Source: Wolfiporia cocos
Lineage: Eukaryota; Basidiomycota; Agaricomycetes; Polyporales; Phaeolaceae
Reading direction: 5' to 3'
Length of the DNA: 64,000 nt
NCBI GenBank assembly: GCA_029448655.1
Contig: JACCLO010000003.1
Location: 1-64,000, forward strand
In this document: piece after piece, positions 6,321-63,254 of the stretch
Layout: every line of letters starts with the position of its first letter
Position numbering within the stretch: the first letter of the stretch is position 1
Notes under the pieces: generated by a model
Told to the model about the DNA's origin: nothing
Database searches by the model: none
What the model saw: only the letters and a program-made list of their open reading frames with translations
Program-made: the position numbers and the translations under genes

Positions 6321-8016
6321 CCTTAATATATAGAAGTCTGTATGACCGCAAATAAGTAAGACCACTCTAAACTAAGGTGATCTGTGCATAAGTGGCTAAG
6401 TATAGCCCATGATGCCATAAGCCCTCATGGTGTGGTGCTACTCTAATGATAGTGCAGTATATCATAATGATGTCCTTTGTATCCTAAGAATATCACTGTA
6501 TGTCATAGAAGATGACTTGACTATGTAAGACTAGCCTTGTATGTCATATGTGTATAGTAAATGGCACCACTATGTCATACCTGTAAGGTAAGCAGACCAC
6601 ACTGAGTCTGGGCCTATAATAATAGGCATGAGGTTATAGAAACCTAGAATGTGAGGCTTGTAGACTAATAATAGTCCTGACATCTTAGATAAGAAGGAGG
6701 GTCACCTGACATGATTCCTGTGATAGTACCTGGTGCTGCTATCTAATCTAAGAGTTTGGCAAGTCATGTGACACAACTCACATGACCCACTGACCTTCAG
6801 GTCGTTGGATCGACCCCAGCCATGTGCAATAAGTACAGTAAACATAGTAAGAGAGGACAATTCTGGATGTGCACAAAATAATTGACACAAGCCATCTTGT
6901 GGGACTCACCAACTTAAGGGTCTTACTCAGACAAGTTGGTGAGGGGTTAGAAGGCAAGCTACAGAGGGTGAGAGGTGCTTCTGCGGCGGTAGCCGAGAAG
7001 AATAGAACTAAGATATCAAGGCGTCAAGCCTTGGTCTTTAAATATGTACAGGGTGAGAACACGTGCTACTAACTAGTGTGTCTGCCCTAAAGGAATGGTC
7101 AGTGCGCCCTATCGGCGTATGCTGACGTATACTCTACTCTAAGAGACCGTGGGAGGCCGGTAATGGCCAGACCAATGGTAAATGAGAGAGTGGTGGTGTC
7201 ACCTTGCGGTGGACATGTGGAACGCGGGCGCAGCCCGGGTATATGGAAGGCCGGTTGTACCGGTGCCTTGAGGGACTATGGCTATTTGCCAGGCCCTTGG
7301 TGACTCAGGCCGAGAAGGCCGAGTGGTATGCCAGAAGCCGGTGATATGATCAGGCCGGTGGTGGCGTGGGAGCGAGGCCTTGCGGCTGGCTCGGAGGTAT
7401 GGCAACGCCGGCGTGAGAAGCACGGAGGTTGCACATTGCCGGGTCTAGAAGCCCGGAGGTAGGACTGTGCCGGTGACGGGAAGTCCGGGGGTTGCATAAG
7501 GCCGGTGATAGAAGCGTGTGCTATTGAGGGAAGCACGGAGCTTAGGAAGTGCCGGTGATGCATGTGGTGGTCGTTAGGCTTCTCAGCGTAGTAGACCGAT
7601 GGGCACAGAGCTTAGTCAGCTGTTGTGCCATGTTGCCATTATTATGCGAGTGGTGCTCGCTGACAGGGAGAGGCTGGTCGACTTGTGGACTCTAGACTCT
7701 ATGACGGGGTTGTGACGTAGCGGTGGCGGTGCTATGACCTAGACGTATGACGTGGATCACAGGATGAGGCACAGCGAAGCACGTTGCCTTAGTGATGACG
7801 TAATCAGTCATGTGGTGTAGCGTTGGGCCGGTGCTATGGGTCACGTGTAGGTTAAGGCCTATTCGGCCGTAAGGTTCCGTTATAATACCTCGGCAGGTTC
7901 GGCATGGTGGGATAAGTCCCGGATAACTTTGTAGAGGCTTGTATAAGGCCAGAATTGGTGCTATAATTGCGCGAAAAATGTGCTATGTCCCAAATCCGTG
8001 ACAATAATCTGTGACA
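6321..8016 (-). repeat. LTR remnant (minus sense), split by a solo LTR
   Basis: Read on the minus strand from 8016, the sequence begins TGTCACAGATTATT and, after removing the nested LTR at 6883-8003, continues to about 6321, where it meets the truncated RT. It shares several blocks with 8017-8365 in inverted orientation (for example TATTATTATAGG and GGTATGACATAG), and with 12169-13010 more distantly. The downstream half of this LTR is lost. Confidence 0.6.
6883..8003 (-). mobile_element. Solo LTR, self-primed family C, TSD ATAAT
   Basis: On the minus strand the LTR runs TGTCACGGATTTGGG to GGCTTGTGTCA, 1121 bp. It is flanked by identical ATAAT at 6878-6882 and 8004-8008, which proves both ends and insertion by an integrase. 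It shows TTAGGG box (7085-7090 as CCCTAA), a TATA-like run near 7040, the palindrome CAAGGC/GCCTTG (7017-7022, 7028-7033), AGTTCTATTC at 7000-7009 and GTGAGT at 6904-6909. Related copies are at 51273-52361 and 56972-57873, all diverged. Confidence 0.85.
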
Positions 8017-8366
8017 CTATGAGGTCAGAACTATTATTAGTTTACAAGGCCCCACATTCCATCGTTTACAACATCAGCGCCCATACTGGCCCAGTCTATG
8101 ACATCATGCCTATTATTATAGGTCTATACTTAGTGTGGCCTGCTTATCTGACAGGTATGACATAGCGGCCTGCTTCCTCCACATTTATGGCATACAAGGC
8201 ATATTTACAGAGCCAGTGTCATCTCTATGACATACTGCACTATTCCTAGATAGCACCATATTATGACGCCTTATGGCATCACTATGATACCACAACATGT
8301 GCACAGACTAGCTGCATTAGGGTAGACATTAGTAGTAGTATAAGGTCTTATATGTCTAGGCATCTA

Positions 8367-8402
8367 TGGTGCCAACGGCCTAGTCACCGCCTCTTTTGTA
8401 CA
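8367..8402 (+). repeat. Left terminal inverted repeat of the transposon
   Basis: 36 bp beginning TGGTGCCAACGGCC and ending CTTTTGTACA, preceded by TA. It matches the reverse complement of 11605-11640 at 35 of 36 positions. Confidence 0.93.
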
Positions 8403-8588
8403 GTAGCCAAATCCTGTGGGCAACTTCACGTTAACCCTAATGCAGGGTTTACATAAGTGCTGGTACCTGGCGGCACCCTGAGATTAAACATTTTGGGTAT
8501 AGTACGGCACGGAGAGAACATTTGAACACTTGTTGTGGTGTAGATACGGCAACGGCGCAGGCCTGTTGTGTATGTACTATTTCACTAC

Positions 8589-11393
8589 ATGCCGCGCTCT
8601 AGTAAGATACAGAAAGCACGCAAAGCTGCCGCTGCTCGTGCACGTACTGGGAAGCAGTTGAGCACACACGCCAGCGCCAGGAAGCAGTCGTGCACATCAC
8701 AAGCCCAAGTATCAGCTGTGCGAGATGTTCTCTGCATAAGCTCAGATGAGGATGACAAGTGCACGTCATGGATGGGGGATGTGAGTTACATGATCTCCTC
8801 GGACAAGAATGAAGATGGAGAGGACTTGAATGATGACGAGGGCAACAACGGAGATGATGACGGAGATGATGACGGAGATGATGACAACAACAACAACGAT
8901 TTGTCTGAGTTGAAGGGTGATGAGCTGCGTCAGAGTCTGGAGATGGCACAGCAGAGGAAAGAACGCAACAGGGATGCCTTCGGTATCCTAATGAGACCAA
9001 TGTCTCAGAGCGTCTGGAAGCAAGCAGAGAGCAACCGGGCTCTGGGTTACAATGGCATGTCAGACAGAACGAAACGGAGGCACGATAAGAAGCTTCGGGA
9101 TGAACAGGCTCACCGTAAGAGGTACTTATCACAATTCATGGGCAAAATGTATGTGTTGACGAGTTTCGGGCACAGCTCTGGTGCGCAATTCATGCACTCG
9201 TTTTTCTCGACACAGAAGGGTCCTGAGCTGTCAGAGCAGCAGTCAAATGAGCAACAGGGTGGTTTACATACCATTCCAAGTGTTCGCCAGCCAGCACTGA
9301 GTGGAGATAAGATTTTCTGTGGATATCTCTCTGATATCTCATCATCAGAGGATGAGTACGAAACCGGAGATGTGGGTGCTGAAGGTGGAGAAGGAAGTGA
9401 AGAGAACATCCACAATAGCCAGGAGCATCAAAGTGCGATGCTACAGTTACTCATGCATGAGGAGGAGGAAGAGAGCAAAATGGACGAGGCTGAACTTACT
9501 GTGGATTCCAGCCCCTCACAGCAGCAGCGCACTGTCCGCTCCAACCAGACAACCCCCCCTCCAAAGCACTGCAAGCTTGAAGTGCCAGCACGCATTACCC
9601 GCTCTCACATCAAGGAGAACCGTATGCGGACCTTCGAGAATGGACTTGATGCAATCCAGAAATTCATTAAATCAAAGCGACATACCTTTATTTCAGGCGA
9701 TAACAGTCTGCAGGCCTGCTGCAGGCACTGTATTGAGAGCTATCTGCACTTGATTGTCAAATACAAGCACTCCATGACTGTGGCAGGGGAATGTGCAGCG
9801 AAAAGCCATGGCTTTTCTGCAAAATGGGGTGTAAGGATGGTGCAGAAGTGGGCTCGAAGATGGTTGAATGCGCGAGAACTTCCCGTATCCTTGAAGGGCC
9901 GGCATATCAAGTCCTATACATTGCTACAGGACCCTGTGGTGCAAGTGGAGCTACGCTCATACGTGCAGTCAAACAAATGGGCCATGAATCCCGAAAAACT
10001 CACCAAATTCACCAAAAACAGCATGGTACCAGCAGCTGCTCAGCAGTATCTGAAAGAGATCATTCGTAAGGAGATGCCAGCAGGGTTAAAGAAGTATATG
10101 GAGCTTGAACTCTTCCCATGGATTCACTTGAAGGTTGGCCAAGAAATCTCCCTGAGCACTGCGCACGATTGGCTTCATCGAGAAGGCTTCCAGTACATCG
10201 AGCACAAGAAGAGCCTCTATTATGATGGTCATGAGTGGCCAGATGTTGTCAGGTATCGTCAAGAAGTCTTCCTGCCAGCAATGGCACAGCATCAAAACAT
10301 GAGTGATCGAGTATGTCGTTGGAAATGTCTCGGAAGAGGTCAACAAGCAAACAGAAAATTATGTTGAGTGCCATCTAGTGTTTGTGGTGCATGACAAAAT
10401 GACTGCCCAAGCACATGATGGTGTCAAAAAAAGCTGGGTTTTCAAAGGTGAGCAGCCACTACAAAAAAAGGGTCCCGGCAGGGGCATTCACTGCAGCGAC
10501 GTAATCTGTTCCACATTCGGTTGGTTGAAGGATGCGGGACAAGGCCTTGAATATGGTAAAAATCATGATGGCTTCTGGAACGGTGAGATGTTTGTGAACC
10601 AGGTATGCCATGACAAATCTGTAGCAGACTTGACTCACAAAATAATTGATCATAGCTGAAAACAAAGATCATTCCGACATTTGAAAAATTGCATGGCCCC
10701 GGATTCCAAGCCTTAATTGCTGTTGACCACTCACAAGGACATTCTGCCTTCGCTGAGGATGCACTTCTTGTGTCACGCATGAATCTGTGCCCTGGTGGAA
10801 AGCAGGCACAAATGCGTGATGGCTGGTTCATGAAGAATGATCAGAAAATTATCCAACAAATGAATTTTCCATACAATCATCCTGATCATCCCAATCTTCC
10901 CAAAGGGATTCGACAAATTCTCATCAAGCGAAGCCTCCGGGTTGATGGACTGCGAATGCAGTGTCACAGGAAATGTGACCCAGATGTGATCAGTTGCTGT
11001 GCCAAGCACATACTCGAAAATCAGCCAGACTTCAAGGAACAGAAAACTCTTGTCCAGGAAGTCATTGAGAATGCAGGCCACATGTGCATATTTTTACCAA
11101 AATATCACTGTGAGCTGAATTTCATTGAATACTTCTGGGGTGCTGTCAAGAAGTATCTCCGCAACCACTGTGATTATACGTTTCCAATATTACAAGCCAA
11201 TATGCCAGATGCACTGGCATCGGTAAGTGTCGAGACAATCTGGAAATGGGAGCACCGGGTTGTTAGGTGGATGGATGCTTATCACTCAGGATTGGGCACA
11301 AAAGATGCTCAATTACAGGTGCAGGCATTCAGTTCTCGTCGATACAAGTCTCACCACCGTGTTCCAGAGACCCTCGCACGTCAGCTTGACTGA
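8589..11393 (+). pseudogene. Large DDE transposase, nearly intact (one frameshift)
   Basis: The protein would cut and rejoin the transposon ends in the nucleus. The first ATG is at 8589. The N-terminal third is acidic (a run of Asp/Asn repeats near 8860-8900) and probably disordered. A helix-turn-helix-like region lies near 9800-10170, with SLYYDGHEWPDVVRYRQ just before the catalytic core. The core has HDKM (first Asp, about 10396), AVDHSQGHS (second Asp, about 10729) and NFIEYFWG (Glu, about 11126), matching the DDE layout and the N-IE-W signature of Tc1/IS630 enzymes. A clean 53-nt intron lies at 10603-10655 (GTATGC...CATAG, branch-like TGACTCAC), phase 0. The frame shifts by one near 10300, between QHQNM and IEYVVG, with no plausible intron there, so this copy is probably dead. 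HDK replaces what I recall as HDE in relatives. Confidence 0.85.
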
Positions 11394-11604
11394 TATACTA
11401 TATTTAAATTAGTCAGATAGGTAGAGATGTCAATACTTTCCTTATATAGTACTGCTTTCCCACAACTGGCCAAATTTGGACATATAAATTTCTCGATTTT
11501 GATTTTCAGAGAAATCCGCCTAGCCATTTTGTTCCTATGTTCAATCTAAGCATTTTGGCTAGACCGATTGTCTCTAGGCACCAATCTGAGCGAGCAGTAA
11601 GACT

Positions 11605-11640
11605 TGTACAAAAGAGGCAGTGACTAGGCCGTTGGCACCA
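11605..11640 (-). repeat. Right terminal inverted repeat of the transposon
   Basis: 36 bp, reverse complement of the left repeat with one C/T difference, followed by TA at 11641-11642. Confidence 0.93.
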
Positions 11641-11803
11641 TAGGGACTTACTTTCCTAGACTCAACAATGTGAACTTGGAGCATTTCCCTACTCTTTTCT
11701 ACTCTTGCTGAGCATCGTGTGCTTGCCTGGGAACTCTTTTCTTCTTCTTAAAACTCTATCTTGTGCTGGCAGCTTGAGATGTCACAGAGACAGGATTGTG
11801 ACA

Positions 11804-12168: not shown

Positions 12169-13613
12169 TGTCACAGTTTTACAAGGCATTTCCCACATTC
12201 TCTATTCTCATAATGGAAGTCGTGCAGCCCCTTTACTAGTACAGGTCTTCTCATCTACATTGTTAGAATCACATGACCAAGGGCTTTCCGATGCACTAGA
12301 AATTACCAAGTCACATGACCTTCCAGGTCATGTGACCTACTCAACTACATCAGATTAGATATGTGCCACTAAGTCCAATCATAGGCACCATACCAGGTGA
12401 CCTTATCTCTTATCTTATCTGTACAAGTTATGACATCAGGTTCCATTACTGGACCAGACCATGACATCATCATGACAACACTATTACTAGGTCATGACAC
12501 CATAGAAAAGCTCATCAGAAGACATTCTGATACGTTACATATCAAATACCTGAAACATGATCATCAACATCATTAGAAGCCATTAGGACAACCCTTCCAG
12601 CTAGAAGCCTAGCAGTTCCATATATCAAGTGTTATTATTAGCGTAGCACTCCACTGTCACAATGTGGCCTTATAGCCCGCTTACTTTCCATCATGACAAG
12701 AAGGCCTAGAAACCTTCACGAATGTCATTACCAGGTACATGCCATATCACACCATAGTCACACCATATTAGCACTACACACAGACCAAGCCATTAGGACA
12801 GGTCTACTCATGAATAGTATACATCATGTATATAACCGAACATCTAGCATCCTACAGCGCTAGACTTAACAATTGCCGCTAGGGCATCCATATTCTCTAT
12901 GGGGGCGTTTCCCCTACTTTTCTTCTAACCTCCTGCTGGATGACTTATGGTCTGATTTGAGGCTTACCCCTTGGTGTTATACTATGTACTGGCAGCTTGA
13001 GACGTCAACTTGACACATACTACTCACATCTGTGGGACCGGTCCTACTGGGGACCCTAACCGTCAGACGAGGTGCGACCGCGCCGTCAGCAGTGATCCTA
13101 GAACCTATGTGACAGAGGTTGCATAGGCCTCCCCAGGCCTAAGGTGACATAACAAGGTGGTGACCCTCGGACTAGCAGTCAAAGAGCCAGTAAGGACCAC
13201 ACCAGCACACAGAGAGGTAAGGAGTAAGAGGGCCAAGCCCTAATGCCGAGAATCTTAGACTTGAGGCATAAGGCAACAAGTCGACATACTTATATACATG
13301 AGGTAACTACCTAATGGCTGGCCCTAAAGTCATAGCCTGTGTGCAGTAACTAAGGGAGCACATGATGAGTAACTACCGTAATGTAACATGTACATAGTGT
13401 GACCGTGATGTAAGTACCTGAGACGCGTGCTACCCTACAGTGCTAATCTACTGGGTCGGGTGGTCTGATAAGATAACAAGGAGCGGACGAGAGGAAACTG
13501 TACGCTAAGACTTAGCCCCATGCCTAGGGGCACTTCCACAATACAGAAAGGGATGTTGAGAACCCCTCACAGAGAATTCTGTGACACAACTAAGACATTG
13601 GATTAGTGTGACA
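12169..13613 (+). repeat. LTR remnant with nested solo LTR
   Basis: Starts TGTCACAGTTTTAC and ends TAGTGTGACA once the nested LTR at 13011-13586 and its extra CAACT are removed. It has an upstream box AGACC...GGTCT (12782-12805) with TTAGGA, a TATA (ATGTATATAA near 12829), and a palindrome TCTAGC/GCTAGA (12843-12848, 12859-12864). Flanking pentamers GAATG and AAACG agree at only three positions, so the outer ends are less certain than for other LTRs here. Confidence 0.6.
13011..13586 (-). mobile_element. Solo LTR, TSD CAACT
   Basis: 576 bp, minus-sense TGTCACAGAATTCTC to GTAGTATGTGTCA, flanked by CAACT at 13006-13010 and 13587-13591. Minus-strand TATA is at about 13290-13300, the palindrome GACTTG/CAAGTC at 13258-13263 and 13277-13282, a CCCTAA box at 13322-13327 and a splice-donor consensus GTGAGT at 13022-13027. 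It is nested in an older LTR. Confidence 0.88.
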
Positions 13614-13896
13614 AAACGGTTCTAAGGAAAGTACACCTTAGAAGTCAAGCTTATATACATAAGGTGCAGCGATCAGTAATCGTCTGCCCTGAAGCTAGAT
13701 GGTCTGTGCATAAGCAAGTAATGACAAGCACACATTTGTTTGGACGCCCTATAATGAATGATCCAAATCATGGTTGTGTATGGGACTGTAGGTCCTTGTT
13801 TGTCCAGTATGACAAAAGATGTTAGTTAGCAGGCCATGAAAATGTACCCAGACCACTGATATAAACCAGCTTGGTAGTGTGTTTGAGATGTGTCTG
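13614..13896 (-). repeat. LTR promoter remnant (minus sense)
   Basis: The stretch keeps an LTR-type promoter on the minus strand: TTCTAAGG/CCTTAGAA palindrome (13620-13627, 13636-13643) next to TATATA near 13651 and an upstream GGTCTGTGCA box near 13701-13710. I could not fix either end. Confidence 0.45.
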
Positions 13897-15187: not shown

Positions 15188-16037
15188 TGTCACAGATTAT
15201 ATCTGTTTCCTACAATTTCCTTGCTATTTCTAGCAATTTATCCCATTTGTTAGCTCAATATCAATGCTTTACGCTAGTTGACGCCCTACGGCCTCATCTA
15301 GCATGTGACCTTATCTTATCTAGGATAGTATCTTATCTCTGTAGTTACATCTCATCTTATCACGTAGTAACATCTTATCTAACATGCGCATTCATAAGTC
15401 ACATGTTCCCAAACAGTATTTCGGGTATATCTCTTGATAGAGTAGCCCAGACCGCTTAGTAAGCTGGTCATGTACTCATGACTAAAGGACGGACCCTTTT
15501 GCCTACTTAGATCACATGATCTAGTCCAGTGCCTTACCAAGCACATAGTCATCACACAAGACATACCCCGGTCGGTGTATGAGTCACTCATCACATGTCT
15601 AAGACCAACCAATCATGCAGCGACCATTACTGGTCGTTAATCACATGCATATCCCCGGCTCTATGCCAAGCGACCCTATTGGTCGCTATTATCTATCACA
15701 TGTATCTATGCCAGTATCATTAGTCCTGCCGTAGTACCAAGGGTCCTAGCCCTTACATGTATATATACCGTACTCTGAGTCGCTTAGGACTCAGACTAGT
15801 TAATTTCGACGTCCACTGTCTATAACCCCCTTTGTAGTACCTGCAAAGGTCTACTTAGGTTTTCACTGCTATACTTAAGCCCTAGCAAGGCCCAACTCAG
15901 TACCTCAACTACTTGCTTAGCTCTTTAGTCTTTGGCCTAACAAACCATTGACCCTATCATTGAGTCGCCTTCTTGCCTATTACCAGCCTATCAGCTTCTA
16001 GCAAGACCCTTAGGCATATCAAGTTAGTTCTGTGTCA
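15188..16037 (+). mobile_element. Solo LTR, TSD TTATC
   Basis: 850 bp, TGTCACAGATTATATC to TTCTGTGTCA, flanked by TTATC at 15183-15187 and 16038-16042. TATATATA lies near 15761, then palindrome TCTGAGTC/GACTCAGA (15774-15781, 15788-15795) with loop GCTTAG. Confidence 0.9.
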
Positions 16038-16893: not shown

Positions 16894-17491
16894 TGTCACA
16901 GATTATTCTGGGATGTCGCCGCTACTTTTTATAGGATTTATTACGCCATTCTACGCCTTGTAAGTAGCTATCCTCAGTAGCGTCACTCACCTTATGCATG
17001 GGCGCCATTACCGACACCACCCTCTATGTGGAAGCGCCCCTACAGGCGTCTTCCATCATGTTATGCCAGAGTGCCATTACTGGCGTCTCTACCCCTATGC
17101 CACATGACTCTGCGCCATTACTGGTGCCTTGTCATTATGTTATCTTCTCTCTGCATTACACGCACAGACCCTCGTGCCTTAGGACAGGCTCGTAGGTACT
17201 GGTGCACCCCCATGTATATATGCGCTAGCATGAGGACTTGCATCCTCATGTTTAGCATTCTCGACGTAGGGTAATGACACCCTCTTTCATGCTATCTTGT
17301 GGGCTGCCATTCCTCTCCTAGTCCTTGGCTTGCTTGTCTAGGGACGTCAGCTTTGTCACCCGGCGTACTGCCATCAAGACTCGCTTGTCACCCCCGCCTC
17401 TCCACAGGTGCCATGGACCTTGGAATACGGCGTAGGGCTATTAAGACTACCGTGGCTATGGGCCAGTCCCACAGATGGTATGTCTGTGTCA
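16894..17491 (+). mobile_element. Solo LTR inserted in the satellite, TSD TACTG
   Basis: 598 bp, TGTCACAGATTATTC to GTCTGTGTCA, flanked by TACTG at 16889-16893 and 17492-17496. ATGTATATA lies near 17212, palindrome CATGAGGA/TCCTCATG at 17229-17236 and 17243-17250 with loop CTTGCA, and donor-like GTATGT at 17478-17483. Confidence 0.9.
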
Positions 17492-23698: not shown

Positions 23699-24317
23699 TG
23701 TCACAAGAAATCCCGTAACGAGGGGGCTCTACTTGTCTCACCCTTGGCTCACGCTTACCCGCAGATATTCGCTATTTCATTACTTTAGCCGCTCAGTGGA
23801 ACCGCACGTGCATAGGTAGATAAGTACTTCAATATCTTATCTCTACAGGTCACGTGACGTTGGGAGTAGTCACAACGTAACGTAGTTATGGGTTACGGTC
23901 ACAGCGCGCACACAGACCACGCCATTAGGGCAGGGCTTGGACGGCAGTAGTTACTGTCTCTCATGTATATATACTACGACGTTCTGAGGCTTACACCTCA
24001 GAACTATTCTTCTCGTCCTTGGGGCAAGTCCCCTGGAAACCATCTCCTCTCTGGTGTGCGCCTGACTCAGCGTCGACACCCTTTCTCTCTCTCTCTCTCT
24101 CTCTCTCTATGACTGCTAGCCTGGGTGCCTAAGGGGTGTTGTTCCCCTCACTCGCCAGCGGTTCGGTGCGTCCCAATCAGCCCCTGAAGACTAGGGAAGG
24201 GCTACGGCAGTTCGTCCACAAGAGCCGTCCTGTTCTCCTAGAGGATAGGATTAGGGATTAGGGAGTGGGGGTTTCCCCGCTTTGTGGGTAGCACGTAACC
24301 AGTGGGTTTCCGTGTCA
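23699..24317 (+). mobile_element. Solo LTR, family B, TSD AGGCC, nested in the hAT-like element
   Basis: 619 bp, TGTCACAAGAAATCCCG to TTCCGTGTCA, flanked by AGGCC at 23694-23698 and 24318-24322. Contains TTAGGG box (23925-23930), TATATATA near 23967, palindrome GTTCTGAGG/CCTCAGAAC (23981-23989, 23996-24004). Other copies are at 25704-26348 and 54806-55454. Confidence 0.9.
24084..24109. repeat. (CT)n microsatellite
   Basis: About 13 CT units inside the family B LTR, absent from the other two copies. Confidence 0.9.
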
Positions 24318-43455: not shown

Positions 43456-45045
43456 GTACCAAGCCAAAAACCATCTCTACAGCAACCTCGCGGCCTACAA
43501 AGGCCGGGTGGACACGGATTTGGAAATGGTCTGGAACAAGACCAACCAGATCCGGAGCCACAACCAGGTGCTTCAAAACAGAATCGAAGCACTAGAGGAA
43601 GCAGAGAGTTTGCGGCAACAATTGGATACCCTTTCCGAAAATCGATTCGTCCACATAGAAAATGATATTGCAGTACTGCAAAAGCGTCCGGCAGTCCCAA
43701 CCGCGGGACCCAGCGGTGCCCAGGTCACGGCACTAATTAATAGAATCGACCAACTCGAAGCGGAGTTAACCGCTCTAAAAAACGCACTGGCAGCCACGAT
43801 AGCAGCAGCCACAACGGTCAACTTCCAACAGACCAAACCGACTCAGCCGCCAAAATTCTCGGGCCCTAAGGATTCCATCTCGTCGAAAGAGTGGATCCAG
43901 AAAATGGGCATGTATTTTGCAGACGCCAAAGTGACCCTCGAGGAAGACAAGGTTCGCCAAGCCCTGCTACGGCTTACAGGCGAGGCCTACCAGTACATGT
44001 CACCGGTAGTTGATAAAATCGCCGCCAGACAAACCTCGGGGCACACCTGGAAAACGTTTGCGGAAACGATCGAGAAGGTGTACGGCAAGAAGACGGACAA
44101 GGAAATTGCCGAAAAGGAGATTGAAGGGTACTTCGGAGACGAAGGGAAAAAGAAGCTCCAATCGGACTTCTTTTCTTGGGCACAGAAGCTCAGGACCCTG
44201 GCTCGCCTGGCCGAGACTGACAACAAGACGTTGTTCAGTCACATCAAACGGATCCTCCCAGAAAAGGTGCGAGAAACCCTCGCTACCTTGGAATCGGTGC
44301 CCGGCTTCGCAATGCCGACCGACTGGGAGGTTTACCTCGATATGGCCATTGACCTCTACAAGAGGCAATACCCGGATAAGCTCAAAGGCAAGATCTTTGA
44401 GGAAGAAAGAAGAAGGAGTCGTCGGGGTCTGGCAAGACCGCCGAAAAAGCTGCGCCGAAGCCTGCCAAGGCTGATGACAAAGGCAAAGGCAAGGCAAAGG
44501 AAACCGGCTCTTACGGGAAGGACTGTCGCAAGCACCCTGGACAACACAAGTGGGGCGACTGTCCAGAAAACCCTAAGAACAAGCCGAAGGAAGCCAAGCC
44601 GGCCAGTAGTGGAAGCGGAACGACGAAGCCAACAGGCTCGTCGAGCAGAACGCAACAGTCGGGCCAGAAGAAATTGGACCCGAAAAAGAAATACAAGGTC
44701 CGAATTGTCAGCACCCAGGAACTGGTAACTGACGACGAAGATGAGTCCCCCCAAGCCACCGTAGGGACCATCCGGACCAACGTTCCGAAGCAACCAGAGG
44801 TGGTTCCTCTGGCCCCCACTACGCGCATCAGCGATGAGGAGCAAAGCGGGAGCTCGGTGCGATCGGCTGAAAGCACCAGCCCCGTCCAGACCCAGTCGAC
44901 TGGTTCGACTTCGACTGCGCCTACACCATCGGGCGACTCCATCAGGACACATCTGCCCTGGCTTCGCAAGCGGATAGCCAACTCCGCAAACACCCTGGGC
45001 ATCTACGGAAGCTCTGCCTCGGGTTTTCCCACCGAGCACATGTGA
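43456..45045 (+). pseudogene. Gag of copy C, truncated and frameshifted
   Basis: Starts at YQAKNHLYSN without a start codon and follows intact Gag through the capsid-like region. A single-base loss in an A run near 44406-44412 shifts the frame, and the true frame resumes to the Gag stop at 45043-45045. The zinc knuckle region lies in the shifted part. Confidence 0.88.
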
Positions 45046-48000
45046 TGACCTGCCCACTTGTGCTCCCATGTAATTTTAGTCCCGTACCCACTGTAAAGAG
45101 TGTATTCGAGTCAATGTATCATAATTTTGGCAACGATGCGCGCGACTTCGCTCGATCATTCCGTGTCAAAGTAACACTCTGGGTATATGGGCAAAAAGTG
45201 CAGGCTCTGGCTTTAATCGACAGCGGTGCAACCATATCGGTCATATCACAACGACTGGTCGATAAACATAAGCTGGTCACCGACAAACTAGCGTTTCCTA
45301 TTACGGTTACAAACGCAGACGGAACAGAAAACGTCGCTGGCCGCTTAACGCAATCAGTAAAAGCATTCATGCAACATGGCACACACAAGGAAAAAATAGG
45401 TCTGACGGTCATGCACCTAGAACCAGACCTAATCTTTGGCTATGACTGGTTGCGTCTCCACAATCCTACCTTTGATTGGAGGAAAGGAGAAATGGAATAT
45501 GCACGCTGTACACACGACCAACCCTACGCCAGGAAAAAGGGTAACCGCCCTTCTGAGGAGGAAGCAGTTGAACTCCCAGAAAAGGAAATCATCGAAGTAA
45601 ATTCGATTTGGGACACTCCCGTGGACATATTAGGAGAGGAGGACCCCGAAAATCCTTTGATCGCTTGGGTGGCAACCCTTGATGACGAGGAAATGAACCT
45701 GCTGACACAGTTGGTAGCTGAAGTACTTGACAAAGACCTCAACGAAGCAGACGACCGTGAGGAAGACACACCACCGATTGACATTGAAAAATGGCGATTG
45801 TTAGTGCCCGAACAATACCAAGAGTATGGGCCAACGGTGTTCTCACAAAAGGCGTCAGAGAGGATGCCGGAACGGAAGCCCTGGAATCACGCCATAGTGC
45901 TTGAACCAGATGTGCAGCTTCCTCCCCCAGTAAAACCATACAAAATGTCTCCCCAAGAGCGTAATAGCTTGGATGAGTGGATAGACACTGAACTACGGAA
46001 GGGTTACATTCGACCGTCCGAAAGTCCAATGGCATCCCCGGTCTTCTTCGTCCACAAAAAGGACGGAGGACTGCGGATGGTTGTCGATTACAGGAGGCTA
46101 AACTAAATAACCGTGAAAAATCGTTATCCGATACCTCGGATCAATGATCTAATCGATCAATTGTCCCATGCGACCATCTTCACCAAAATCGACCTTAGAT
46201 GGGGATACAATAATGTCCGCATCAAGGACGGTGATGAATGGAAGACGGCGTTTATTACACACCATGGACTATACGAGGCAACGGTAATGTATTTCGGTTT
46301 CTGCAATGCCCCTGCAACGTTCCAAGCGATGATGAATTCAATCCTCGCACCGTTCATTCGGACCGGCAAGGTGGTTGTCTACCTAGACGACATCTTGATT
46401 TTCGGGAACGATATGGAGGAACATCGGCGACTTACCAAAGGGGTTCTCCAAACCCTGAAGGACTCGGACTTGTATGCTAAGCCCAAAAAGTGCTTCTTCG
46501 AACAATCTTCCATCGAATACCTAGGAATGATCATTTCCGACGGTAACATCATGATGGATCCGAAGAAGTACGCCGGAGTTCAGGACTGGCCTAGACCTAC
46601 CAAGGTCAAAGAGGTTCAAGCTTTCCTTGGATTTGCCAATTTCTACAGGCGATTCATAGAAAGCTTCTGAAAAATAGCCAAACCACTCACCATGCTGACC
46701 AAAAAGTCAGAAGCTTGGCATTGGGACGCCGAGCAGGAAAATGCCTTCCAAACCCTAAAGGAAGCATTTACCAAAGCGCCCGTGCTTCGAATTCCGTCGC
46801 ACGATCAGCCTTTCCGCGTAGAAACAGATGCGTCAGACTTCGCTACCGGAGCAGTACTATCTCAGTTAGATCCTACAGATAAAAATTCCACCCCGTGGCG
46901 TACTATAGCAAATCGCTAAGTGCCCCGGAAAGGAACTACGAGATCTACAACAAGGAAATGTTGGCTGTCATCAGGGCTCTAGAGGAGTGGCGACACTACC
47001 TAGAGGGACACCCTGAAAAATTCGAGATATGGTCGGATCATCTGAACCTGACTTATTTCAAAACGGCGCAAAAACTGACGAGACGACAAGCCCGTTGGGC
47101 ACTGTACCTCTCACGCTTCAACTTCCAAATGAAGCACAAACCTGGCAAAACAATGCTAACCGCGGATCCTCTGTCCAGGCGGCCAGACCATGAGGAGGGG
47201 GTGGATCTCGATAATCGCGACCAGGTTCTTCTGAAACCTGAGTGGTTCGAGCAAGAGTACATGGCAATGGCTCTTGATACCTCCCATGCTGCCCCACAAT
47301 CGGAAGATGAATCGATACTCCGAGAGATTCGCAAAGCGTTGCTAGACGACAAGGTCACAAAAGACTACAAGGAGCTGCTCTCATCCGGCCCTCGTGAATT
47401 CAAAAAAGACCTATCAGAATGGAACTACGAAGGAGGATTACTCCTCCGAAGAGGCAAAGTCTACGTTCCAGCTACACCAGCGGATATCAGACGGCAAGTG
47501 GTCGAGTATCATCACGATCACAAGTCAGCTGGGCATTTCGGACGCTACAAAACGTACGAATTGCTAAGCCGCAACTATTGGTGGCCCGGAATGTTCGTTT
47601 ACGTCAAAAAATACGTAGACGGATGTGACACATGCCAACGTATGAAGAACCACCCGCAGAAGCCGTACGGCCCCCTGCAACCCTTACCGGTGCCGTCAGG
47701 CCCGTGGGAAGTGGTGACAATAGACCTGATTACTCAGCTACCCCCATCGGGAATGCATGACGCGATCATGGTCGTAGTGGATCGGTTGACCAAAAGAGCA
47801 AGGTTTTTCCCAATCGAAAATACCTTCTCAACGAAAGACCTAGCTACGATACTCTATCAAAAGGTATATCCCTTACATGGGTTACCGAAACAGATAATAT
47901 CGGACAGAGGGACACAGTTCGCCTCAAAACTATTTGGTGAATGGTGCACCCTGCTGGGAATTCAAAGGTCGATGACTACTGTGTACCATCCGCAGGCAGA

Positions 48001-49471
48001 CGGACAAACCGAGCGAGTAAATCAAATACTCGAACAGTATCTGCGGTGCTACATCAACACGTACCAAAAAGATAACTGGTCGGAGTTCCTGCCAACAGCG
48101 GAATTTGCGTACAATAATGCAGCCAGCGAAACTACCAAGGAATCTCCATTCCTGGTAGAATTAGGTCGCCACCCTATTGCAGGACCAAGCAGTTTCGAGC
48201 CAAGTCGAAACAAAGACTTAGTAGAAATTGCGAACACACGGTTCTCTGCACAAGAGAAAGCTAAGGCGGCAATGAAAATTGCAGCCAAAAGATGGTCCTG
48301 GTACTATGACCAAAAGAAGCAAATTGTCCCCTTCAAAGTGGGCGACAAGGTACTCGTGGACGTGCGAAGTTGGCAAGACACCGAAAGAAGTCTAGCTCCT
48401 CGCTACATTGGCCCATTCCAAATCACGGAAAAATTGGGACCGGTAACGTTCAAGGTGTACATGGACGCACAATATAGGGCTTACCACCCTGTGTTCCATG
48501 CTTCAAAACTGGTCATGTACAAGGAATCAACCATCAAAGGTCAGAAAAGTCATCCTCCTGCGGCTGACAAGCCAACGGAAATGGAAGACCCGGAAGAATG
48601 GGAAGTGGAAGCCATTCTCGACCATCGTAACCGACGCGGCCGGTGGGAATACCTTATCCATTGGAAAGGCACCGAACCTGCGGAAGACACGTGGGAAATC
48701 GAGGAACATTTGGCTAACGCTAAGGAGATACTGGACGAGTACAAGGCAAAATATTCAGCCCTTAGTACCGACCCAAATCAACCCCTCCGCCGATCAACTA
48801 GACTCGGCGGAACATGGCAGACAATAGCCGTCTTCGACCCTGACTCACCAGATTGGGATTCGGACACATGTGTCTGGCCCGATGACTGGCCCCAATATCG
48901 AGACGATGTTGATCCTACACAACCGAAAGTGTACTACAAGCGCGATCCCTTTACAGGGCAATGGGTACATTCCGACGTTGAGTTCAACGAAGACTTGGAA
49001 ATCGAAGTAGGAGTCAATGGCCAACTACCGACCAGGGGAACAACCGATGCGATCGGCTACGATTTGTATGCCGCGCAGGATATCCTGATCAATTCATGGA
49101 AATCCGCTTCGGTCCCCACGGACATTCGTATCAAAGTTCCATATGGGACATACGGTCGGATAGCGCCAAGGTCTAGGCTTGTGAAAAAGGGCATCGACGT
49201 CCTTGCAGGCGTAATAGACCATGACTACCGCGGAGAAGTCTTTGTCATGTTGATGAACCTCACTGGAGACCCGTACCAAGTAAAGAAAGGCGATAGAATT
49301 GCGCAGCTAATTTGCAAAGTAGCAATCACACCCGAAATACAGGAATCCATGACCAAGGAGAAGTTCGAGAAAGAAATTCGACCTCACCTGCATGGAAGTG
49401 GGCCCTACAACGAGCAGTTCAACAAGCCAACCACGCGCGGTACACAAGGTTTTGGATCGACGGGACGATAA
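45045..49471 (+). pseudogene. Pol of copy C with two stops and a frameshift
   Basis: Protease (IDSGAT) and RT begin normally from the ATG at 45045. A TAA at 46104-46106 follows YRRLN at the start of the RT core, a TGA at 46668-46670 follows FYRRFIESF (the same codon as in copy A), and a base is lost in an A run near 46883 within RNase H. From about 46895 the frame is open through integrase, chromodomain and dUTPase to 49471. dUTPase motif 2 reads APRSRLVKKG, losing the conserved Gly. Confidence 0.9.
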
Positions 49472-49562
49472 AAGTGGAAAAATCATAAAGACTAACCCTT
49501 CAATGGGCTCTAGCACAACTTCTACTCTCAACGGGGTCGTTGAAATCTAAGGGGGGGGGTAA

Positions 49563-50181
49563 TGTCACAAGAATTCTCCTAGTTTCCCTATATTTCTTAC
49601 TATTTTTCCGGCAATTCTACAAATTATCTACGACTTTCTAGACCAATAACTAGCTTATCCGGTTCATAGGTTAACGGTTACATACATACCGAATGATGGC
49701 CGCGTTATCTCCCGTAACGACGGTCTTATCTTATCATTAGTAGTTACCATCAGTCACATGTCTAGTTCCAGCCAATCGGACATTCCGTCCGGAAGCAGTC
49801 AGCGTATAAACGTCAGCAGACCGGGCTTTGGTCACGTCCCGTCTTTGTAATGACAAGAGCGCAAAACGCCATTCGTGCGGCCTACACCGCCTTTCTATAT
49901 CTCGGTTTTGATCGGCATATGTATTTATCGTATATTACTAAGTACTTAGGTACCTGGGGACTGGTACATACGAATATGGACACTAGTATTATCTAATAAG
50001 ACTGTTAGGGGTCTTATTTATCATGTATATATACTGGACTTGCTGAGCGCTATTGCCTCAGTTCTATTCAATGCATTCATACTACGAGTTAACCACTCAA
50101 CGTATCCTGCTTAACAACTGCTTTATCTCTTGCCTAACCAGCAATATCAAGATCATTACAAGTAAGTGTTATCTTGTGTTA
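49563..50181 (+). repeat. 3' LTR of copy C
   Basis: 619 bp, TGTCACAAGAATTC to CTTGTGTTA, preceded by a polypurine tract of nine G and TAA. The right flank ATGGC does not match the flank of B or A. Confidence 0.94.
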
Positions 50182-51272: not shown

Positions 51273-52361
51273 TGTCACAGATTTATCTGGGGCTTACAGC
51301 ATTTTTCCTACGATTATAGCAATTTACCTGGGATTTATACGTCTAACTACAAGTTATCTACGGGTTAACTCCCATTGCCACCACGACAAGCTCTTAACTG
51401 GGCTTATCAACCACATGACTAGCTTACGTAACGCTACGGTACAACCACGTCCAATAGCAACACTACAGCATACGTCATAGGTCTCGCCCGTCAGAGCAAG
51501 ACCAGCCACGTCATAGATCTTAGATCATAATGATAGGCCGAGCGCGGCACGCTCGCATAATAATGTCCACATGTACAAACAGTGCCTCGCGGCCTTGTAC
51601 TATTGGGTCAGCCTTCCCGGCTTCCCACCGCCATAAGATCCTCGATCACAATGGCACCTCAGGCGCGCCACGCCTTCGCATAATAATGGCAACACGGCCA
51701 AATAGCACTATATTAGCATCAAGGCAATATCGCTATAGGCTCGGCCTTCTCGGCCATCCCACGGACTCGGCGTTCTCCAAGTCCCGGGCTTCTGCCATCA
51801 CGGCGTTGCCCAAACACCGGTCCTCGCCTCACGGCTAAGACCACCATATGTCCCGGTAACCATCCGGTCCGGGCATATCACATGCTACGGTACCTATCGG
51901 TCCAATAGCATAACGACCTCGGCGTCCCGCCTTGGTCATCCAACGAAGCACGGCCAATCGCCATTATGCCGCAAGGTATCCGGCAACCGGCTTCACCTAT
52001 ACCCGGGCTGCGCCCGCGTTAGCAACACAATAAAGACATAATCCCTCTATTACGATTGGGTCGGCCATTAGGGCCTTCCACGGCCATTCTAGATAGAGTA
52101 ACTAAACATCAGATAAGATAGCGCTTCGCCCCTTGGCAAAGCCACATAACCCGGAATGGTAGTACTAGTTAGTAGCACGTGCCATCCGCATAAACATGTA
52201 TATAAGTAGGGGCTTGACGCCCTTTAACTTCAGTTCTATTATTCTCGGCTTGCGCCATAGAATAACCTCTCACATCCTGCTGCGCTGGTATTGTCTCCTC
52301 TCTAAGTCGCCTTATCTCAACAATATAGGCACTTGGTGAGTCCCACAGGCATACTGTGTCA
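51273..52361 (+). repeat. 5' LTR of a family C retroelement
   Basis: 1089 bp, TGTCACAGATTTATCTGG to ATACTGTGTCA. Box GCCATTAGGGC (52064-52074), TATATAA (52199-52205), short palindrome GGGC/GCCC (52210-52213, 52219-52222) with loop TTGAC, start region AGTTCTATTATT (52232-52243), donor-like GTGAGT (52336-52341). A matching primer site follows, so this is a 5' LTR rather than a solo LTR. Confidence 0.82.
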
Positions 52362-52362
52362 T

Positions 52363-52374
52363 AATAATAGAACT
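52363..52374 (+). other. Self-complementary primer-binding site of the family C element
   Basis: AATAATAGAACT is the exact reverse complement of AGTTCTATTATT at 52232-52243 in the adjacent LTR. It starts two bases after the LTR end, the same spacing as in the chromovirus. Confidence 0.78.
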
Positions 52375-54426: not shown

Positions 54427-55729
54427 TGTCACAGTTTTACAGGGTTTTTATCCTCAAAAGACTCATGTCTCAAACTTTCTTTTGCATTTTGCGCCTTAAC
54501 CATCACGTGCCGCATGGGCGCTCAAGCATCACATGATAGTTCCTTTATGGGGCTACAACATTGCACAAACACACGTGATCGTGGGAATAGCTTATCTAAG
54601 CAACTGCTGTTATGCCCGACTAAATAGTTACAAGCCACAAGTCACAAGACCCTGTCTCAGGTCCCGGCTATAGTCTAGGCTCCATGGATTAGATCATGGA
54701 GGAAGCACATGATCTTAATTACATCACATGACCTCAATGACATCATTGAATCCAGGCCGCTACCCTCGGACATGGGTCGGCCTTAGTCATTTACCAGTAG
54801 TCGTCTGTCACGGTAACCACCGTGCCACCCGCCCCAGCGGGGAACCCCTATATCCGCCCTATCCCTAACGCCTATAGCCCCCCACCCTCCTAATGGCGGA
54901 GAACAAGAAGGCACTCCTATTGAGGAGCCCTGCCGTATTGCCTGAAGTACCAACCCATGAGTGTACCGGTACGCCCTCAGACTAGCAAGTAAAGGAGTAA
55001 GGGACAAGTTGGATGCAATGAATAGAGGCCCCCACGCCCAAGTAGGACGTAGCAGGCTTTGTCGACTAAGACCCTGCACGCAAGGACAAGTTGGCAGACG
55101 GTATATGAGAGGTTGCCAGGGGACGCGCCCCCAATGACGAGAAGATAAGTTCTGAGGAGTACCTCAGAACGCTACCTAGTATATATACATGTGGACGCAG
55201 ATTCCTATAGCTACAAGACCTGCCCTAATGGCGTGGTCTGTGCACACTGTGACTACGCTGCACATGACTATGTAACGCGGGTGACTCCAGTGACGTACCA
55301 CGTGACCTATGTAAGAGATATGATATGATGAAGACTTATCTACTTTTCCATGCACGTGCAGTCCCGGGCGGCTAGGTATAACATAGCAAATATCTGGAGA
55401 ATCAAGGTGAATAAATCCTCAGGGAACCCCTTTATTCCGTGATTTCTTGTGACATCGTCACATGTACAGTTGAGACATTGGTTGATTTACGATATGACAC
55501 CATTACTGGTTGTCCAATCACAATTGTACTCATAAGTACAGGGGGGTCTCACTTTAGGGTCCTTAGGGGCCTATACAACATGTATTTAAAGTACTACCTT
55601 CTGAGCGCTTACTCTCAGAACTAGCAACTTCGTCGTATTACCTCTGCTTGCCGCATTGTAACCTCGTTACAATCTTGCCTCATAACACCTTGAGTCGCAT
55701 ACCTGTCCGCAAGTAAGTAGCTTGTGACA
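54427..55729 (+). mobile_element. Solo LTR with nested family B LTR, TSD CAAGG
   Basis: TGTCACAGTTTTACAGG to TAGCTTGTGACA, flanked by CAAGG at 54422-54426 and 55730-55734. About 650 bp without the nested copy. ATGTATTTAA near 55580, palindrome TTCTGAG/CTCAGAA (55599-55605, 55614-55620), GTAAGT at 55713-55718. Confidence 0.9.
54806..55454 (-). mobile_element. Solo LTR, family B, TSD TCGTC
   Basis: 649 bp, closely matching 25704-26348, flanked by TCGTC at 54801-54805 and 55455-55459. Box AGACC...GGTCT with CCCTAA (55216-55239); palindrome GTTCTGAGG/CCTCAGAAC (55149-55157, 55162-55170). Confidence 0.93.
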
Positions 55730-56299: not shown

Positions 56300-56301
56300 G
56301 T

Positions 56302-56672
56302 TGACACAAGCGCTATCTCAAGCAACTACTCAGGGGAATATTACTCGCGTGGAAGCATATTCCTAGTCTGAGGCTACTCAAGGCAACAAAGGCCAAGACG
56401 AGTCTGGGGTGCTCCCTGCTCGTCTGGCTGGTATATATGCTCGTAGGCTGTTTGTACATGTTTGGCTACTGTACAGTATTACGTAAGCTGATAGACCGTT
56501 TAGAGTATGGTAAACCCTATCGTAGGTGTAGAGCCACAACAAGGGTGTCCGGGGTCTGTGTAAGCACGTGTGGGGTGTTCGGGGTCCTTGCACGTGATGC
56601 ATAGGCGGGCGCTTAGATAAGATAAGGGTTGTCCCTAGTCGCAAGCTAGTTGGAGAAAATCGGCTTGTGACA
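56302..56672 (-). mobile_element. Short solo LTR at a start codon, TSD CATGT
   Basis: 371 bp, flanked by CATGT at 56297-56301 and 56673-56677; minus-sense TGTCACAAGCCG to GCGCTTGTGTCA. TATATA near 56434 on the minus strand, then palindrome AGACGAG/CTCGTCT (56396-56402, 56419-56425). Confidence 0.87.
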
Positions 56673-56971: not shown

Positions 56972-57873
56972 TGTCACAGATTTATCTGGGGCTTACAGCA
57001 TTTTTCCTATGATTATAGCAATTTACCTGGGATTTATACGTCTAACTACAAGTCGTCTACGCCACTCACGCTTACGCTCACGCCTCGCTAACGCTAAGTG
57101 TAACCCTTGGCTCACGCTAAGCTAACGCTTGGCTAACGCCAAACCACATGGTCTCGCCCGACAGAGCAAGACCAGCCACATCATAAGATCTTAGATCATA
57201 ATGATAGGCCGAGCGCGGCACGCTCGCATAATAATGTCCACAACACCAAACATCGCCACCAAGCAATGTTCTATTAGGTCGGCCTCCTCGGCTTCCCACC
57301 GTCATAAGATCCTTGATCATAATGACACTTCAGGCGCGGCACGCCTTCGCATAATTATGTCAACACGACCATACAGCATAATATTAGCAACAAGGCAATA
57401 TCGCTGTTGGTCCGGCCTTATCGGCCATCAATACCCGGGCTGTGCCCGTGTTTGTCCAAGATAATAATAAACCTCCTCTCTTACTATTGGTGCGGCCATT
57501 ACCGGCCCACACGGCCATTGTAGATAGGATCATAAAAACATAGATAAGATAAGCTTCGCCCATTGGCAAAGCCGCATAACCCGGAAAGGTAGTACTATAC
57601 AGTATCACATGACCTCTCCGCATACATGTATTTAAGTAGGAGCCAAGCGCTCCATACTTCAGTTCTATTCTATCGTCGTTACCACGAATGCCCACACGTG
57701 GAGTACCATAGGTACTCCCAGTGGACTACCATTGGTAGTCCCAAGCTTCGTCTGGTTTGCGGCTGCGCTACTATTCCACTAGCAACTGCTGCACTGGGTC
57801 CGTCTTCCTCGTCTAGTCGCCCTAGTACCTCAGGATAGCGACTAGGTGAGTCCCACAGGATAGATCTGTGTCA
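56972..57873 (+). mobile_element. Solo LTR, family C, TSD GGGGT
   Basis: 902 bp, TGTCACAGATTTATCTGG to TAGATCTGTGTCA, flanked by GGGGT at 56967-56971 and 57874-57878. ATGTATTTAA near 57628, palindrome GGAGC/GCTCC (57639-57643, 57649-57653), start region AGTTCTATTC (57661-57670), GTGAGT (57846-57851). Confidence 0.92.
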
Positions 57874-61043: not shown

Positions 61044-61926
61044 TTATCATGGTGATCCTGCATGTATCGCTGAGTGTTCTGGCCGGCTAATGGAATCACA
61101 CTCAAGTGTATTGAGGATTCACTCATGTATTTGGGACAGTATTTGACTTGTCACCGACAACATGGACAGGGATACAGACAGCCGTCTCTGTGCAGGCTCT
61201 TGGGTGAACACGCGATCGCATGCTCAATAGGGAATATTGAACCGCAGAAGGCGCAAAGCAATTGGGCACTGGCAGCAAGTTGCCAGGTTCTCACATCGTC
61301 TGTGTTGCTATATGGAATATCATTATGATCCTACTATGACTTGATGATGCGAACTATAACGAAATACTTGTGGTCCTTTACGAGACACAACAGAATTATA
61401 TCGATGTACGGTATGAATATAGCGACATGTATCGATGTCAGTATAGAATAGACTGTCATGGACATTTCGGGAGGGAAATTTTCGGGAGGGAAATAACAAT
61501 TATACGGACGTACGTTAGCAGCGAATTTGGAATTCATAACACTTTACCATTGATGTTGAGCTGAATTTAACGATTAGGTGGGAAGCCATGAATTTGGTCA
61601 TGGGTCAGAGTAGCATTCGCGAATATGTGACCGCAGTGAGGGCAAGAAGTTCCTACCGGAGGTACGCTGGAGATGCAAGAGTATTGAATATCCCGTTGAA
61701 CAATGAAGCTGATAGGAGGCTTACTGAGTTGACAGATGGGCGACTAACATGCCATTCTGTGTGAACAATAATCCACATGCATGGCAAGTGAGTGATCTAT
61801 TGAACGACCATCAGGTATGTGTGAACTGTATTTGAACATTCGGACTCACAGAGTGAGGAAATGGCTGGCCCAATCAATGTGTTTCTTGATAGCTGTAGCA
61901 TCGCCTGCATGTCCACATATACCCTG
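61044..61926. other. No recognisable gene
   Basis: AT-rich sequence downstream of the kinase-like gene, with a direct repeat TTTCGGGAGGGAAAT near 61465-61495. ORFs are short and unlike proteins. Confidence 0.5.
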
Positions 61927-62468
61927 TGTTACGGATCGAATATCCGTTCAACGCAAAATAACTAAGTCGAGTTACTCAGCGTATCGAGTAGCGCACTACT
62001 CGTCGGACTCCTCTGAGTCAGAGCGTCGATATACAAGCTGCAGGCTTAATTGCTCAAGCCTTTGAGAACGAGTATAGGATCCTTGAATTCAACAAGGTCG
62101 AGCTGAGGAACTCGACCAGTATTTACATCAGGCTATATACTGCGATTCGTTAATCGGGGTCATAGTGTCTTTGGTACTACTACTATTAAGTCCGTAGGGC
62201 TAACGATATAAGTAATAAAGGAGAAGCGTTGCGGTTGAGCGCAACAAGAGATGAAACATAGAACCACTGTGGTTGGACACAGAATATCAGCTAGAACGAG
62301 ATGCGGACACGGAGAGTGGGCATAGGGTTGTTATACATGAAACAGGGCCTACGGTTGAGCAGAGGCCCCCTAGAAATAGAGCGCTAGGTACAGCGGTTGA
62401 ACGCTAAGTCCTCATACACGGTGAGGTGTCAAATGGAATATCCTAGTGTACCTGGTGGAACTGTAACA
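61927..62468 (-). mobile_element. Solo LTR, family F, TSD CCCTG
   Basis: 542 bp, flanked by CCCTG at 61922-61926 and 62469-62473. It is the inverted relative of 13902-14446, about 48 kb away, with long shared blocks despite clear divergence. Confidence 0.9.
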
Positions 62469-63180
62469 CCCTGTCCGTTAGTATCAATTGGCCAGATACA
62501 AATGAATTGATTAAGGGCATGTTACGGTTATTTCGATTTCTTGAATATCTATAGAACTTGTCACAAACTTTCGCTATGCAGGTTTGTACTCCCTCGCTAT
62601 AGGACGCACGCGCGGCGCTAGGCGTACGCCGTGCCTCTGCGCTGTAGTTACCTCCAGCGTCACTCCCAGTTATTGCAGGTCACCTGGTCGTTAGGTTAGC
62701 GCTGTAGGGTAGCGCGCGCCTCCGGTACTCACACTATGGTCACAGTGTCACAAGAATTCTCCTAGCTTCCCTATATTTCTTACTATTTTTCCGGCAATTC
62801 TACGAATTATCTACGACTTTCTAGACCAATAACTAGCTTATCTGGTTCATAAGTTAACGGTTACATACGTGCCGAATGATGGCCGCGTTATCTCCCGTAA
62901 CGACGGTCTTATCTTATCACTAGTAGTTACCATCAGTCACATGTCTAGTTCCAGCCAATCGGACATTCCGTCCGGAAGCAGTCAGCGTATAAACGTCAGC
63001 GGACCGGGCTTTGGTCACGCCCCGTCTTTGTAATGACAAGAGCGCAAAACGCCATTCGTGCGGCCTACGCCGCCTTTCTATATCCCGGTTTTGATCGGCA
63101 TATGTATTTATCGCATATTACTAAGTACTTAGGTACCTGGGGACTTGTACATACGAATACGGACATTAGTATTATCTAAT

Positions 63181-63254
63181 AAGACTGTTAGGGGTCTTAT
63201 TTATCATGTATATATACTGGACTTGCTGAGCGCTATTGCCTCAGTTCTATTCAT
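63181..63254 (+). promoter_or_regulatory. LTR promoter of copy D
   Basis: AAGAC...GTCTT box enclosing TTAGGGG (63181-63198), TATATA (63209-63214), palindrome CTGAG/CTCAG (63226-63230, 63240-63244), and start/self-primer AGTTCTATTCAT (63243-63254). Confidence 0.7.

Follow-up and report, generated by a model that had tools for sequence, protein, structure and literature searches.

A covarying palindrome beside the TATA box of Wolfiporia cocos long terminal repeats and its possible role in hiding a self-primer copy at the 3′ RNA end

Palindromes in the long terminal repeats of the window

The stretch analyzed here (the window) comprises the first 64,000 nucleotides of contig JACCLO010000003.1 in the Wolfiporia cocos assembly GCA_029448655.1 and carries retrotransposon long terminal repeats (LTRs) of several families, in which a short palindrome adjoins the TATA box. 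We describe the position and covariation of this palindrome, its overlap with a stretch that we predict to be the self-primer of these elements, and a tentative reading of its function that involves the border between the unique 3′ region (U3) and the repeated region (R) of the LTR. Palindromes of this kind had been reported at 17 coordinates in a first-pass annotation; all 17 were re-read, and 15 prove to be local inverted repeats adjoining a TATA-like box. An exact 5-bp target duplication surrounds eight LTRs with these palindromes, and the eight have the common ends TGTCAC...GTGTCA/GTGACA. The search for LTR boundaries, which employed several end motifs per site together with flanking target duplications, found no boundaries with a duplication for the palindromes at 7017, 12843, 13620, 14675, 52210, and 55599. 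The LTR of one Ty3/gypsy family (family 6) is present in five copies in the window, and the features of this and the other LTRs are as follows.

62746-63364 (+): family 6 LTR, TGTCACAAG...TTGTGTTA, followed by internal sequence (ends read in the sequence)
63209-63217 (+): TATA box TATATATAC of this LTR, read in the sequence; index 0 is 63209
63226-63244 (+): family 6 palindrome CTGAG-9-CTCAG, across the predicted U3/R border
63243-63254 (+): predicted RNA start and 12-nt self-primer AGTTCTATTCAT of family 6, exact reverse complement of 63366-63377
63366-63377 (+): predicted primer-binding site ATGAATAGAACT of family 6, just inside the LTR
42957-42975 (-): family 6 palindrome again, in the 5′ LTR of a gypsy copy
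42824-42835 (-): predicted primer-binding site of that copy, pairing with 42947-42958
27173-27191 (-): palindrome of a gypsy LTR copy
33914-33932 (-): palindrome of a gypsy LTR copy
50043-50061 (+): palindrome of a gypsy LTR copy
52210-52222 (+): small palindrome GGGC-5-GCCC of family 7, wholly in predicted U3
52232-52243 (+): predicted RNA start and self-primer AGTTCTATTATT of family 7, reverse complement of 52363-52374
52363-52374 (+): predicted primer-binding site AATAATAGAACT of family 7
7017-7033 (-): palindrome CAAGGC-5-GCCTTG, of family 7 type by position and by an R-like stretch
12843-12864 (+): palindrome TCTAGC-10-GCTAGA
13258-13282 (-): palindrome GACTTG-13-CAAGTC; LTR 13011-13586, duplication AGTTG
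13620-13643 (-): palindrome TTCTAAGG-8-CCTTAGAA
14675-14694 (+): palindrome CTGAGGT-6-ACCTCAG
15774-15795 (+): palindrome TCTGAGTC-6-GACTCAGA; LTR 15188-16037, duplication TTATC
17229-17250 (+): palindrome CATGAGGA-6-TCCTCATG; LTR 16894-17491, duplication TACTG
23981-24004 (+): palindrome GTTCTGAGG-6-CCTCAGAAC; LTR 23699-24317, duplication AGGCC
26044-26065 (-): palindrome GTTCTGAGG-4-CCTCAGAAC; solo LTR 25704-26348, duplication AGCTC on the minus strand
55149-55170 (-): palindrome GTTCTGAGG-4-CCTCAGAAC; solo LTR 54806-55454, duplication GACGA on the minus strand
55599-55620 (+): palindrome TTCTGAG-8-CTCAGAA
56396-56425 (-): palindrome AGACGAG-16-CTCGTCT; LTR 56302-56672, duplication ACATG
57639-57653 (+): small palindrome GGAGC-5-GCTCC with the core seen in locus L185, wholly in predicted U3; LTR 56972-57873, duplication GGGGT

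Position of the palindrome and its excess over chance

Genome-wide counts refer to the 64.4-Mb W. cocos genome (76 contigs). LTR modules were gathered by their TATA motif, with the hairpin ignored, from the first listed places, which lie mostly on few contigs and do not form a random sample; index 0 is the first T of the TATA box for all module positions. A first clustering by shared 11-mers chained 125 of the 200 unique modules into one group and was dropped, and identity in flank alignments was used instead, giving 103 families in which rare families weigh the same as common ones. The palindrome does occur in many families, as had been claimed, but calling the LTRs unrelated was too strong given this chaining by flank words and the ends shared by the eight LTRs in the window.

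The sequence CATGTATATATAC occurs 1288 times in the genome, compared to 5 occurrences of the reversed control. Of 144 unique TATA-sampled modules, 84 carry a stem of 7 bp or more that begins no further than 16 nt from the motif, compared to 0.34% in composition shuffles, which bears out the original observation of a palindrome beside the TATA box. At the level of families, the scanned region yields a stem of 6 bp or more in 70 of the 103, with its centre at index 24.5-27.5 in 65 of the 103, and the bin at index 25-29 holds 51 stems of at least 7 bp where 0.2 are expected. Weaker excesses are seen downstream, at index 60-64 (10 vs 3.0 expected for at least 5 bp) and 80-84 (4 vs 0.0 for at least 7 bp). 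A further inverted repeat, often GGGG..CCCC, lies at index 60-85, within predicted R.

When sites are classified by their TATA sequence, a stem of at least 7 bp stands at the palindrome position in 93 of 170 LTR-type ATG-TATA sites, with 1.8% in the random control. Such stems are found at 12 of 288 other TATATA sites, six of which are the opposite strand of gypsy LTRs, at 4 of 89 TATAAA sites, three of which resemble LTR modules, and at none of 87 TATTTA sites; at TATAAAAGGC sites the best stems are of 2-5 bp (8 fetched of 36 places). Moreover, two copia LTR families of this genome, which are few and represent 2 of 32 RVT_2 places, have no stem of at least 6 bp with a loop of 3-10 nt anywhere in the aligned LTR. 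Both of these families carry GGTTATGAGCCC at the LTR edge, which we take to match the anticodon region of the initiator transfer RNA (tRNA). The hairpin pattern gave 66 matches in 62 stretches of IMG/VR, none of which was recognised as an LTR module, and we take these matches as chance.

Covariation of the two arms

Covariation was assessed in 36 families chosen by the loop motif NTTAC[AT], with pairing disregarded. Counting from the loop, pairs 1 to 8 are of Watson-Crick type in 32, 28, 29, 26, 27, 26, 28, and 22 of the 36 families, compared to means of 10.8-24.6 of 36 (about 11 for pairs 6, 7, and 8) when the arms are permuted among families, a procedure that leaves kinship among the families in place. 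In 2000 permutations the observed pairing was never reached at positions 1, 3, 5, 6, 7, and 8, once at position 4, and 62 times at position 2; positions 9 and 10 are not significant (177 and 1748 of 2000 permutations). Three Watson-Crick types are used at pair 6 and all four at pairs 7 and 8.

Pair counts across the genome give the same picture. The fifth pair of TCTGAGG/CCTCAGA is A-T in 1294 cases, G-C in 122, G.T in 8, and A.C in none (with a TATATATA site counted twice), and the crossed combination of GTTCTGAGG with CCTCAGACT is absent genome-wide. In 55 sampled modules with a TCTGRGG/CCYCAGA core, the next outer pair is T-A in 26 and G-C in 22; it is C-G or A-T in three, and four modules have a mispair there. 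The claim that pairing is kept while the letters change is thus upheld by both the permutation test and the genome-wide counts. Loop length varies among the modules, and the orientation of the loop is constant, with TTAC in 63 and GTAA in 3 of the 200 modules.

Predicted self-priming

Immediately inside the gypsy LTR lie 12 nt whose exact reverse complement is found within the LTR, starting in the right arm of the palindrome at index 34. Overall, complementarity of 11-14 nt between the sequence at the inner LTR edge and an LTR stretch starting at index 32-34, or once at index 40, is seen in 11 families or loci, and in 8 of the 11 this stretch begins inside the right arm. Judged from their sequence, these elements look self-primed, a point absent from the first-pass annotation, and we infer that their RNA begins with this LTR stretch. 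The palindrome had been placed ahead of the RNA start, and this agrees with the prediction for 3 of the 11 families or loci, in which the right arm ends short of the predicted start; in the other eight the arm extends 1-6 nt beyond it.

The LTR of the same element, not tRNAs, was the reference against which candidate primer-binding sites were read. Among 105 modules that extend far enough downstream, 15 matches of at least 10 nt were obtained, of which 11, from seven families, lie at the LTR edge. Mismatched family pairs also give matches of at least 10 nt (31 of 503), so that the place at the LTR edge, and not the match alone, carries the argument. Twelve further likely 5′ LTR stretches yielded four sites, a partial match of 8 nt in L177, and an 8-nt match far off in L183, the other six being without a match. 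The remaining four of the 15 matches (L119 twice and L128 twice) were excluded from the tally of primer-binding sites, as they arise from adjacent LTRs in inverted orientation that form hairpins.

Leaders were folded from the predicted start through the site for all of the 11 but L185 and family 21, and each of the nine is predicted to form a helix between primer and site with a mean pair probability of 0.92-0.98. A TTCTCGAC/TTCTCGTC motif recurs in LTR modules just after the predicted primer; the predicted leaders of L187 and family 19 show pairing between the GACA of this motif and TGTC at the end of the LTR. The pol protein of family 6, the family whose coding part was read, contains RNase H, integrase, and chromodomain regions, and some of its matches are named 'tf2 155 kDa protein type 1-like' by the source. 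Relatives of the pol protein in the window are from basidiomycetes, with Trametes spp. among the nearest named (120 of 5475 matches listed), and none were found in IMG/VR. No tRNA genes were found in the window.

Predicted masking of the 3′ primer copy

A self-primed element has its primer sequence at both ends of the RNA. With an RNA that begins at the first complementary nucleotide, U3 would include the loop and the left arm, and in 8 of the 11 families or loci the outer part of the right arm would fall in R. Neither loop nor left arm would then be present at the 5′ end, which leaves the 3′ copy as the only place for the hairpin to form. The primer of about 12 nt would be free at the 5′ end to pair with the primer-binding site, and at the 3′ end the left arm would adjoin R and the first R nucleotides would be folded into the hairpin. 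Were the hairpin absent, pairing of the binding site with the 3′ copy would be possible, and an RNase H cut at that copy would waste the binding site and lose the 3′ R that is needed for the first strand transfer. Our preferred reading, offered tentatively and as quite possible rather than probable, is that the covarying hairpin at the predicted U3/R border hides the second self-primer copy in the 3′ RNA end of these predicted self-primed LTR retrotransposons. R and the binding site would drift jointly and the left arm would have to follow, which would keep the pairing while the letters change.

Folding predictions for 95 of the 103 families, in which the RNA start was taken as the Y-A step at index 32-35, are consistent with such masking. 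The median predicted cost of freeing R1-12 is 1.2 kcal/mol in the 5′ copy, 6.9 kcal/mol in the 3′ copy if the element's own U3 is attached, and 3.6 kcal/mol if that U3 is shuffled, and the cost with the element's own U3 exceeds that with shuffled U3 in 78 of the 95 families. R1-5 has an unpaired probability of 0.76 in the 5′ copy, 0.24 next to its own U3, and 0.42 next to the U3 of another family. In addition, the covarying pairs 6-8 lie mostly in predicted R.

Several observations weigh against masking. The scanned region shows no stem of 6 bp or longer in 33 of the 103 families, and R6-12 is scarcely masked (unpaired 0.61 in the 3′ copy and 0.65 in the 5′ copy). In eight families R begins with AGTTCTATT, and four of these (families 7, 9, 38, and 70) show no masking over shuffled U3, and the small hairpins of family 7, L185, and family 21, three of the 11, lie wholly in U3. 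The RNA start is uncertain by about 7 nt because the loop holds another Y-A step, at index 26-27, although with a start in the loop the hairpin would still need U3. Wobble pairs bear no RNA signature: G.T is seen 15 times against 29 for A.C at three pairs other than the fifth, summing to 23 G.T against 29 A.C. The mismatches in the fetched stems, which are a small sample, comprise G.T 4, A.C or C.A 2, T.C 7, C.C 6, and 2 others. We considered wobble as proof of an RNA hairpin and rejected it, given that one pair is clear (8 vs 0) and three others are opposite (15 vs 29). Many of the copies may be dead and decaying, which would blur a wobble signal and lends masking no support.

Alternative explanations

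Some of the same observations would be accommodated by a promoter element acting at the DNA level, which we think rather unlikely. Lying between the TATA box and the RNA start, the palindrome would help to open the promoter or fix the start of transcription, via a cruciform or a hairpin in the melted strand, and an exact start would matter here since the end of the RNA itself serves as primer. Such an element could account for the tight spacing of the centre from the TATA box (65 of 103 families) and for the lack of a net wobble preference, and it would also cover the lineages with a hairpin wholly in U3, although in these the distance from the TATA box is different. Against it stand the TATA sites outside these LTRs, most of which are without a palindrome, the two copia families that also lack one, and the location of the covarying outer pairs mostly in predicted R.

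Alternatively, an RNA hairpin at the 3′ end might have another job, marking the U3/R border for the first strand transfer or aiding 3′-end formation in the 3′ LTR alone. Hairpins wholly in U3 would fit, as would a hairpin confined to the 3′ copy if the RNA starts as predicted, but with a stem in the template, synthesis proceeding from R into U3 would be expected to be slowed rather than aided, and we judge this explanation unlikely.

Pairing might also be kept mainly by mutation, with template switching inside the palindrome, in the course of DNA synthesis, copying one arm onto the other and no stepwise selection, as described for hairpins of RNA genes in the part of PMC8794818 consulted. The rarity of mismatched intermediates and the absence of a wobble excess agree with this mechanism, which leaves unexplained, however, why the palindrome has a fixed place in most sampled families. 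The single loop orientation argues mildly against it as well, although loop inversion was rare also in the hairpins covered by that part of PMC8794818, and all in all we find it distinctly improbable that mutation is the main cause.

The earlier suggestion of selection on structure or on a dimer-binding site fares better in its first half, and a site for a dimeric DNA-binding protein, for which the very common core TCTGAGG/CCTCAGA would speak, is highly improbable because pairing is kept while pairs 7 and 8 take all four Watson-Crick types and pair 6 takes three, and because varied loop lengths would shift the spacing of the half-sites.

Comparison with known systems

The predicted elements resemble the Tf1/sushi group of self-primed Ty3/gypsy chromoviruses (Tf1, Tf2, Tj1, and Tosmo1-3, with Tcn1 proposed) in having, just inside the LTR, a site that is the reverse complement of the LTR stretch taken as the RNA 5′ end. 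Complementarity at the Tf1 primer-binding site is 11 nt according to the portion of PMC7175516 consulted. Family 6 also encodes a chromodomain and an integrase, and the folded leaders close on the primer helix; of the three duplexes of the Tf1 leader ('pretzel'), the primer helix has a predicted counterpart in 9 of 9 folds, and a pairing like the second duplex, between the LTR end and sequence after the primer, is predicted in L187 and family 19. In contrast, the covarying U3/R-border hairpin complementary to the start of the primer goes unmentioned in the descriptions of the Tf1/sushi group compared here.

Stem-loops in retroviral R, as covered by part of PMC3601003, likewise show conserved pairing near the RNA start inside the LTR. 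Being located in R, however, they are present at both RNA ends, whereas the fungal hairpin needs U3 and would be restricted to the 3′ end if the start is as we infer. Hairpins maintained by template switching, in the part of PMC8794818 used here, are similar in that the paired arms change together, and the fungal palindrome differs from them in its fixed place relative to the TATA box and the predicted RNA start. The portions of the literature on self-priming, leader structure, and R stem-loops that were compared, which do not extend to the primary Tf1 papers, mention no covarying U3/R hairpin.

In the same portions, the literature on Tf1-type priming is silent on how the wrong primer copy is avoided, and a hairpin confined to the 3′ end would, if true, provide an answer. 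A more specific proposal, which we regard as possible but doubtful, is that the left arm is a U3 'guard arm', a new cis-acting RNA switch that would repeat the end of the primer-binding site and lock the 3′ self-primer, so that only the 5′ end primes, with guard arm, primer, and site covarying three-way across dozens of families. Dozens of diverged families in one fungal genome would be natural compensatory variants for a direct test. Furthermore, a rule of complementarity linking left arm, R, and binding site would make RNA starts predictable from DNA alone.

Other features of the window

Positions 8355 and 11655 had been read as the two arms of one LTR palindrome, an assignment that we reject: they lie 3.3 kb apart and mark the two ends of a DNA transposon, where the sequence forms a 97% terminal inverted repeat (8364-8402 vs 11643-11605). 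The transposon itself spans 8364-11643, and its 39-bp terminal inverted repeats flank a DDE_3 transposase frame.

Upstream of the TATA box in the gypsy LTRs (for example at 63170-63200) there is a second inverted repeat, AATAAGAC-8-GTCTTATT on the other strand, which is listed for four of the five copies in the window and has a telomere-like loop, CCCTAAC. Two gypsy copies lie head to head at 42837-50181, with the minus-strand LTR (42837-43455) abutting the truncated internal part of the plus-strand copy at 43456. On the minus strand at 27766-30567, a Ty3/gypsy chromovirus pol carries a C-terminal dUTPase domain, a fusion that is also present in Postia, Phanerochaete, and Tuber elements according to the part of PMC2864245 consulted. 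Finally, positions 1-160, at the start of the contig, consist of a telomere-like array of the heptamer CCCCTAA.

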